From positions 1 to 64,000 of the forward strand of contig JBFMHE010000001.1 in the NCBI GenBank assembly GCA_040752355.1: a stretch of DNA of 64,000 nt. The letters run 5' to 3'. The stretch comes from Nitrospirota bacterium. GTDB taxonomy: Bacteria > Nitrospirota > Thermodesulfovibrionia > Thermodesulfovibrionales > Dissulfurispiraceae. The translations under genes and the position numbers were made by a program. Positions 53,935 through 56,607 of this stretch are shown here, one piece after another (the stretch's first letter is position 1; every line of letters begins with the position of its first letter). The notes beneath the pieces are model-generated. The model made no database searches. It had not been told where the DNA came from and saw nothing but the letters and a program-made list of their open reading frames with translations.

Positions 53935-55632
53935 GTGGATATCTTTAAACTCAACCGTACCTACAAGTCGGCGCGGCGGCTTCAGCAGATCATCAATGTC
54001 TTTCTCAAGTACGGCTTCGGCCAGATCGTCGAGCAGATAAACCTCGGCAGGTACATCCCTTTCAAGAAACGCATCAGGTCCTTCGGCGCCTGGCCCGCCC
54101 TCAAGGGCCCGACCGTTCCCGAGCGGCTCAGGATGGCCTTCGCCGAGCTGGGGCCCTCGTTCATAAAGCTCGCCCAGGTGCTCTCGTCCCGTCCCGATCT
54201 CATCACGGTCCAGTACGCGAACGAGCTCAGGAAGCTCCAGGACAAGGTGCCCCCCTTTCCCGCTGTCGAAGCGAAGCAGATCGTCGAGCGCGAGACCAGC
54301 CTGCCCCTCTACGACATGTTCAGGACCTTCGACGACCATCCCATTGCAGCGGCCTCCATCGCCCAGGTCCACCGGGCAGCGCTGCTCGACGGCGCGGACG
54401 TGATCGTCAAGGTCCAGCGCCCCGGCATCAGGGAGGACATCGAATCCGATATCGATATCCTCTATGTCATCGCCCGCCTCCTCGAGAAGCATGTGCCCGA
54501 GAGCAGGTTTTTCAATCCCGTCGGGATCGTTGACGAGTTTGCCCGTACGATCAGGAAAGAGCTCAACTTCGAGGAGGAGGCCCGCAACGGGTACCGCTTC
54601 AAGAAGAACTTCGAGGAGAACCAGGATATCTATATCCCCCGGATCTATCTCGAGTTCGTCACCGAGAAGGTGCTCGTCATGGAGCGGATCGACGGCGTCC
54701 GGATCGACGATTTGGGGGCGATCACCAGGATGGGGTTCGACCGGAAGCAGCTCGCGAAGGTCGGGGTCGACGCCTTCTTCAAGCAGGTGCTCGAGGACGG
54801 CTTCTTCCATGCCGACCCCCATCCGGGCAACATCATGGTAATGCCGAACGGCCAGCTCTCCTTTATCGATTTCGGCATCGTCGGCAGGGTCTCGGAGGAG
54901 CTGAAGACGACGATGGCCAATACCTTTCTCGCCCTCATACAAAAAGACTTCGACCGGCTCATCGATCAATACCTCGAGCTCGGCATCATCCCCGAGCATG
55001 TCGATATCGACGCCTTCAGGAAGGAGTTCAAGGCCGACCTTGTCGATCTGCTCGAACCGCTCTACGGCCTGACGCTACAGGAGATCAATTTCGCCGAATA
55101 CCTGCAGGCGATCACCCAGCTCGCCATAAAGCACAGCCTCAGGGTGCCGTCGGACCTCCTCCTGGTCAACAAAGCACTGCTCATTCTCGAGAATATCGGG
55201 CGGCAGCTCGATCCCGGGTTCGATTTCGTTCTTGCCGCACAGCCCTACGCCTCGCAGCTCATCAAGGAGCGGGTGAGCCCTTCGCGCTTTTACGAGAAGG
55301 CACGGGCGAATATCATGGACTTCACCGACTTCGTAGCCCTCTTCCCGAAGCAGATGAAACAGATCATCAAGAAGATCATCAAGGACGACATCAATGTCCG
55401 CATGTACCACGTCAATCTGCCCGAGTTCATCCGCGATATGGACCGCTCGAGCAACCGCATCGCCTTCGCCATGATCGTCAGCGCCATGATCCTCAGCTCC
55501 GCCATCATGCACGCAACCGGCGTGGGCCCGACCATTTTCGGAGTCTCCCTCCTCGGCCTCTCGGCCTTCTTCTTCGCCTTCTTCCTCGGCGTCTGGCTGA
55601 TCATCTCGATCATCAGGTCGGGGAGGCTGTAG
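53935..55632 (+). CDS. UbiB/ABC1-family atypical kinase
   Basis: This 565-residue protein begins with GTG at 53935. Motifs are FIKLAQVLSSRPDL (equivalent of the KxGQ loop), PIAAASIAQVHRA (Ala-rich nucleotide loop), VIVKVQRPG (ion-pair Lys), FFHADPHPGNIM (catalytic loop) and FIDFGIVG (metal-binding DFG). Two membrane helices end the protein (about 500-560). UbiB proteins are needed for quinone synthesis, probably by ATPase rather than protein kinase action. The canonical KxGQ reads KLAQ here, a small deviation. Confidence 0.92.
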   Translation: MDIFKLNRTYKSARRLQQIINVFLKYGFGQIVEQINLGRYIPFKKRIRSFGAWPALKGPTVPERLRMAFAELGPSFIKLAQVLSSRPDLITVQYANELRKLQDKVPPFPAVEAKQIVERETSLPLYDMFRTFDDHPIAAASIAQVHRAALLDGADVIVKVQRPGIREDIESDIDILYVIARLLEKHVPESRFFNPVGIVDEFARTIRKELNFEEEARNGYRFKKNFEENQDIYIPRIYLEFVTEKVLVMERIDGVRIDDLGAITRMGFDRKQLAKVGVDAFFKQVLEDGFFHADPHPGNIMVMPNGQLSFIDFGIVGRVSEELKTTMANTFLALIQKDFDRLIDQYLELGIIPEHVDIDAFRKEFKADLVDLLEPLYGLTLQEINFAEYLQAITQLAIKHSLRVPSDLLLVNKALLILENIGRQLDPGFDFVLAAQPYASQLIKERVSPSRFYEKARANIMDFTDFVALFPKQMKQIIKKIIKDDINVRMYHVNLPEFIRDMDRSSNRIAFAMIVSAMILSSAIMHATGVGPTIFGVSLLGLSAFFFAFFLGVWLIISIIRSGRL

Positions 55633-55725: not shown

Positions 55726-55754
55726 TTGACAAACGATCCTAAACAGGATAGAAT
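55726..55754 (+). promoter_or_regulatory. Strong sigma70-type promoter of the cyd remnant
   Basis: TTGACA (55726-55731) and TAGAAT (55749-55754) are 17 bases apart, about 100 bases before the ATG at 55851. Confidence 0.7.
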
Positions 55755-55795
55755 CGGTCCAGAATTAATGCCGGGACGCATGCCCAGCCCGGCTG

Positions 55796-55830
55796 AAGCG
55801 CACTCATAAATTTTAAGCGCACTTATAAAT
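55796..55830 (+). promoter_or_regulatory. Pair of 16-base direct repeats in the cyd leader
   Basis: AAGCGCACTCATAAAT (55796-55811) and AAGCGCACTTATAAAT (55815-55830) differ at one base and are 19 bases apart centre to centre. They stand between promoter and ribosome binding site and could bind a regulator such as the Rrf2 protein encoded downstream. Confidence 0.55.
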
Positions 55831-55850
55831 ACAGCAAGGAGGATAGGGTT

Positions 55851-56099
55851 ATGGATGCATTGATGCTCAGCAGGCTGCAGTTCGCCGTCACCGTCATGTT
55901 CTATTTCATCTCGAGCATCGACCCGAGCTACAGTCTGACGATCTTCAACTCGTCATCGAGCGTCTACACGCTCAAGATCATGACGGTCGTTGCATTGGTC
56001 CTCGTGCCTGTGGTGATCGCGTACCAGGTCTGGATTTACCGGATATTCAGCCATAGGGTGAGTGCGGACGAGATACTCTCCGACAAGGAGGCGTATTAA
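55851..56099 (+). pseudogene. In-frame fusion remnant: start of cydA joined to end of cydB
   Basis: This 82-residue frame begins MDALMLSRLQFAVTVMFYFI, the classical N-terminus of cytochrome bd subunit I (CydA, including the first-helix heme b595 His-ligand region, where His is replaced by Tyr). From residue 21 it reads SSIDPSYSLTIFNSSSSVYT, LKIMTVVALVLVPVVIAYQV, WIYRIFSHRV, the last helix of subunit II (CydB). About 2.3 kb of intervening sequence is missing, without a frame shift. The promoter, leader repeats and ribosome binding site (AGGAGG) are intact. No functional oxidase can result. The loss is either a real deletion or an assembly error. Confidence 0.8.
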
Positions 56100-56187
56100 A
56101 AATTATCGTATACTGTTCTAAGGGAGCGGAGCACCCTTACCATTAAAAGAGAAGGATAAGGAGTTCCTTACGAAAGGAGCGAGGCAT

Positions 56188-56607
56188 ATGGAAATTACCC
56201 GTGAGTCCGACTACGCCATACGGTGTGTCTTGTATCTTTCCGGCAAGCCCGGCGACATCGTGATGGTGGATGAGATTGCCCGGGAGATGGAGATCCCGAA
56301 GAGCTTCCTGGCGAAGATCCTCCAGAAGCTGAACAAGTCGGGGCTGGTGAAGTCGTACCGGGGCATCAAGGGAGGGTTCCAACTGGCCCGGAGCCCGCGG
56401 GAGGTCACCCTGCTCGATGTGGTCGAGGCGGTTGAAGGGCCGGTCGCCCTCAACAGCTGCGTCATCGATAAATCGGTCTGCGGAAGGAGCAGCACCTGCG
56501 GGGTACACCACGTCTGGGCGGATGTCAGGGCGGATTTCAGAGAGATACTGAAGAAGTATACGTTCGAGCGTCTTGCTCCGGCGAGCGCCTCGCTCCGGCA
56601 GCAATGA
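56188..56607 (+). CDS. Rrf2-family Fe-S transcriptional regulator
   Basis: This 139-residue winged-helix protein begins MEITRESDYAIRCVLYLSGK. The recognition region is MEIPKSFLAKILQKLNKSGL, VKSYRGIKGGFQLARSPREV. The three Fe-S-ligand cysteines are in LNSCVIDKSVCGRSSTCGVH. Such regulators sense NO, oxygen or Fe-S status. Located behind the cyd remnant, it probably regulated cydAB. Confidence 0.92.
   Translation: MEITRESDYAIRCVLYLSGKPGDIVMVDEIAREMEIPKSFLAKILQKLNKSGLVKSYRGIKGGFQLARSPREVTLLDVVEAVEGPVALNSCVIDKSVCGRSSTCGVHHVWADVRADFREILKKYTFERLAPASASLRQQ

Follow-up and report, generated by a model that had tools for sequence, protein, structure and literature searches.

A probable young remnant of a lost cytochrome bd operon, in frame between ubiB and an Rrf2 regulator gene in a Nitrospirota genome

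What is the short open frame between a ubiB-type gene and an Rrf2-type regulator gene in this Nitrospirota bacterium, and what became of the oxidase whose pieces it carries? In the window (the whole stretch of DNA analysed, 64,000 nt), positions 55851-56099 of the forward strand hold an open frame of 82 codons with an ATG start and a TAA stop, translated as MDALMLSRLQFAVTVMFYFI (CydA part) followed by SSIDPSYSLTIFNSSSSVYTLKIMTVVALVLVPVVIAYQVWIYRIFSHRVSADEILSDKEAY (CydB part). An earlier note on this DNA had proposed that the first 20 residues of CydA are here fused in frame to the C-terminus of CydB, and both profile matches and alignment to relatives bear this out. Codons 1-20 (55851-55910, forward strand), compared with relatives' CydA, are a CydA N-terminus in which His18 has become Tyr, with 16 of 20 residues identical to those of G003 (L022). 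The last 62 codons of CydB and the stop follow (55911-56099, forward strand), 85% identical to the G003 CydB: the Pfam profile PF02322 (CydB) matches remnant residues 5-66 (E 7.6e-12) with its C-terminal end, 239-302 of 302; positions 305-374 of 378 in TIGR00203 match residues 12-79; and solved CydB chains match the C-terminal part (e.g., 7d5i_B 283-339). The in-frame join falls between codons 20 and 21, near 55910/55911.

Upstream, the locus is bounded by a gene of the ubiB/ABC1-kinase family (53935-55632, forward strand), a neighbour shared with the relatives G002, G004, and G006; named members of the window's family are mostly Nitrospirae or Thermodesulfovibrionales MAGs. In G002 (L182) the order is recX-alaS-phasin-ubiB-cydA-cydB-rrf2-acdh-pmbA-queD-hpt, and that of the window is identical except that G002 has full cydAB. 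G004 (L184) has ubiB-cydA-cydB-rrf2, and G003 has cydA-cydB-rrf2-acdh-pmbA. Full genes between ubiB and rrf2, which the note had suggested looking for in relatives, are therefore found in both G002 and G004, at the remnant's place. Since they lie at exactly the same position in G002, DNA is missing from the window: about 2.1 kb, judged against G003. In G017 the order is ubiB-rrf2-cydA-cydB, with rrf2 upstream of cydA. A CydA match of some kind was found in 30 of 60 relatives, many of them weak; many family members lack a full CydA, and cydAB loss is common nearby. G009 (L139:2664-4832) shows another loss at this locus, and a cleaner one: rrf2 directly follows ubiB, with no cydAB between the two.

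We consider it probable (roughly 80%) that 55851-56099 is an in-frame deletion remnant of a cytochrome bd operon. An ancestral ubiB-cydA-cydB-rrf2 operon would have lost about 2.1 kb in a deletion that involved little or no homology and brought codon 20 of CydA into frame with the final 62 codons of CydB.

The same arrangement could be produced by assembly collapse, with the real genome carrying full cydAB; the genome (3.57 Mb, rated 100% complete) is a draft in 44 contigs, and the assembly may also mix strains at the remnant site. Collapse is nevertheless very improbable, one argument against it being the haem d ligand. This is His18 in M. smegmatis, His21 in G. thermodenitrificans, and His19 in E. 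coli (PMC8324918; PMC8585947). Residue 18 is Tyr in the window and His in 77 of 77 intact CydA sequences from fetched loci covering the position, and Tyr18 is the sole change among 24 positions invariant in 61 intact sequences. An intact operon shortened by the assembler would have retained the His; the inactivation is therefore real, and the piece does not come from a functional gene. The breakpoints have at most a possible microhomology of 1-2 nt, and no in-register repeat longer than 2 bases is found at both, with relatives standing in for the lost ancestor. The missing cydA and cydB pieces are on no other contig, and the contig with the remnant is 460 kb long. Tyr18 and the lack of repeats led us to reject collapse as unlikely. 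The His18Tyr change itself might have come first, as the inactivating step, or later, by drift or by being favoured.

Genome searches found no CydA elsewhere in the 3.57 Mb and no second CydB; an intact cydAB elsewhere, proposed earlier as a check, is thus absent. No haem-copper oxidase subunit I (COX1) was found in the genome either. A cytochrome bd is taken here to have a full CydA with its haem ligands (E. coli His19, His186, Met393, Glu445) and a full-length CydB. With the quinol oxidase (CydA PF01654, CydB PF02322) the remnant shares CydA residues 1-20, with Tyr at 18, and the last 62 of CydB, and with its operon the position in the gene order, the promoter, and the downstream regulator; about 90% of both subunits is missing, however, and the haem d ligand is replaced. 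As judged from its sequence, the product cannot be an oxidase, because none of the other haem ligands is present and both subunits are almost entirely missing.

The note had also raised a loss of oxygen defence. For the defence as a whole this is not borne out: the genome keeps 8 rubrerythrin-family matches and two flavodiiron-type candidates (ODP domains), while a search of it for desulfoferrodoxin found none. One rubrerythrin-like match (G000:C1:125273-125755) has two TAA stops in its frame, and is possibly another decaying oxidative-stress gene.

When the oxidase was lost was approached with a purpose-written codon model, comparing the window branch with intact genes. Over the 62 CydB codons omega on the window branch is 0.072, equal to that of the intact genes (LRT 0.004), and neutral evolution (omega 1) along the entire branch is rejected (LRT 9.0); the evidence against omega 1 is weaker (LRT 3.2) when all 82 codons are included. 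The haem ligand is lost, yet the CydB part has evolved no faster than in intact genes, so either the deletion is late or the fragment is constrained. If the branch is split into a constrained and then a neutral part, the neutral part is best fitted by about 0.017 substitutions per site when all 82 codons are used and by zero when the CydB part is taken by itself, and the likelihood clearly falls once the post-deletion neutral part exceeds about 0.1. Under this simple codon model, then, the deletion occurred late along a long branch (about 0.02 neutral substitutions per site, with an upper limit of about 0.1), or the fragment is under constraint; the first alternative agrees with the recent loss that had been suggested. 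When indels were simulated at one tenth of the substitution rate, a frame of 82 codons remained open in 55% of cases at 0.02 substitutions per site and in 8% at 0.1, so an open frame is to be expected of a young remnant.

A second remnant lies in G006, which belongs to the same family but to another genus (g7). A 109-codon open frame (L018:1366-1695 / L136:6801-7130) lies there between ubiB and rrf2. Its first part is a decayed CydA N-terminus (MYALWAGRLQRAVAAAFYFI), which likewise has Tyr at position 18; its last part is a CydB C-terminus, decayed as well, in which two compensating frameshifts keep the frame open. Like the window's genome, G006 has no CydA of its own. Its remnant differs from the window's in being longer, in having decayed with frameshifts, and in its right junction; the left junction could be anywhere from about codon 20 to 31.

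One old deletion, inherited by both from a common ancestor, would account for the same locus, the same Tyr18, the two open frames, and fusion near the same left point. Other evidence makes this highly unlikely. A tree of eight neighbouring genes places the window with G003 and G016 (98/98), and G006 outside both that group and the G002/G015 pair (99/99), and cydAB is intact in G003 and G002; two separate deletions are therefore simpler, and the shared Tyr18 would then be parallel. In addition, G006 retains about 25 more CydB codons and has an uncertain left junction, the closest relative of the window fragment is that of G003, and the codon model times the window deletion late. A UbiB-only tree is too weak to resolve shared from separate deletion. 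A single ancestral deletion was thus not favoured by the eight-gene tree, and the two remnants are apparently separate events.

Directly after rrf2, G006 has what look like genes for a haem-copper oxidase subunit I-type protein (482 aa) and a cytochrome c-like protein (296 aa), both named by eye (L136:7608-9948). They occupy the interval from rrf2 to acdh, which is empty in the window and in G002, and it is possible that they replace the lost bd oxidase.

The slow evolution of the CydB part suggests another reading, in which the product of 82 residues has been retained as a small membrane protein with a function of its own, for example as a structural or regulatory peptide like CydX. The start, the ribosome-binding site, and the frame are intact, the omega of 0.07 and the rejection of neutrality over the whole branch would fit, and the separate G006 fusion is open too, although random indels would usually have closed it. 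We regard this as unlikely. A late deletion explains the slow evolution equally well; in G006, 5 of the 9 invariant N-terminal residues are gone and one stretch is frameshifted, so residues are not conserved there; and such a frame occurs in just 2 of 176 members of the order.

The resemblance to the small bd subunits CydX and AppX is in being a small membrane peptide at a cyd locus; the remnant is longer, has no sequence match to them, derives from CydA and CydB, and has no oxidase to bind. No match to a CydX family was found in Pfam or NCBIfam at E up to 1, and neither CydA nor CydB is encoded in the genome as a partner; the missing family match led us to reject a CydX-like identity. The note had counted two membrane segments; hydropathy and a single-sequence structure model of moderate confidence (mean pLDDT 75, pTM 0.41) give only one strong membrane helix (about residues 43-65) and a short N-terminal one (model helices 2-21 and 43-81).

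The regulator downstream may account for the intact expression signals of the remnant. The Rrf2-family gene (56188-56607, forward strand) still adjoins the remnant and is intact: it encodes an Rrf2 domain (PF02082, E 4.7e-39) and a C-x6-C-x5-C triad, with the cysteines shared by G003. It is full-length and has three cysteines, as in Rrf2-family Fe-S regulators of the IscR, NsrR, and RirA type, but all NCBIfam equivalog scores are below cut-off, which gives it no named subgroup. In G003 rrf2 starts 8 bases after cydB, a spacing which indicates that it belonged to the operon.

Upstream, a sigma-70-like promoter (TTGACA-17-TAGAAT, 55726-55754, 11 of 12 consensus bases) is overlapped at its -10 element by an imperfect Rrf2/IscR-like dyad, AGGATAGAATCGGTCC, the two together spanning 55726-55766 on the forward strand. 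The same arrangement precedes intact cydA in L022, L044, L046, L047, and L026, and 30 of 47 bases in the promoter region are identical to G003; the promoter has thus been kept, as had been proposed. The dyad reads AGGACTAAATTAGTCCT in L026, AGGATAAAATCAGTCTT in G003, and AGGATAGAATCGGTCCA in the window, and the relatives' versions carry GACT...AGTC halves, which we take to resemble IscR-type sites. It is a putative operator. The former cydA ribosome-binding site, AAGGAGGA (55837-55844, within a base or two, forward strand), has likewise been kept, being conserved before cydA of L022.

The leader repeats are another matter. Two 14-base copies of GCGCACTYATAAAT, at 55798 and 55817 and 19 bases apart (55798-55830, forward strand), had been counted among the kept features, but none of the relatives' cydA leaders has them, and two such matches arise in 15 of 100 shuffles. 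Private to the window and weak against shuffles, they were rejected as an ancestral operon feature; they are probably a local duplication.

The promoter, ribosome-binding site, and open first frame may have persisted because rrf2, further along the same transcription unit, still depends on them. A leader translated in frame would keep ribosomes on the message and so avoid polarity on rrf2. The remnant is in this sense a candidate translated leader serving rrf2, at somewhat less than even odds. In G009 rrf2 adjoins ubiB although cydAB is absent, and in G017 it precedes cydA, so it can be expressed otherwise than from the cyd promoter. In the window, the 88-base gap before rrf2 could also hold a weak promoter missed by the consensus scan. 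This gap (56100-56187) contains the short inverted repeats AAGGGAGCGGAGCACCCTT and AAGGAGTTCCTT, where G003 has only 8 bases.

In a broader version of the leader proposal, the bd operons of this family would be reduced time and again to short in-frame CydA::CydB mini-genes without the haem ligand, which persist as translated leader peptides or membrane peptides controlling rrf2. This seems unlikely. Beyond the window and G006, no CydA::CydB fusion was found among 176 genomes of the order, a count that leaves out short-frame matches near contig ends (such as those in G125, G128, and G156). The best reading is more modest: an anaerobe-like bacterium has lost its bd oxidase, leaving a young remnant whose promoter and first frame may now serve rrf2, a real but fairly ordinary gene loss. 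A literature search on cydA-cydB fusions or pseudogenes found no matching paper.

The remnant would then be a snapshot of oxygen-reductase loss in a lineage where such loss recurs, and of the order of decay: the structural genes have gone first, while promoter and regulator stay. It also bears on annotation. With 45.6 bits, the CydB match of the remnant exceeds the Pfam cut-off of 35.6 in an organism with no bd oxidase, so that family matches alone would wrongly credit it with oxygen respiration.
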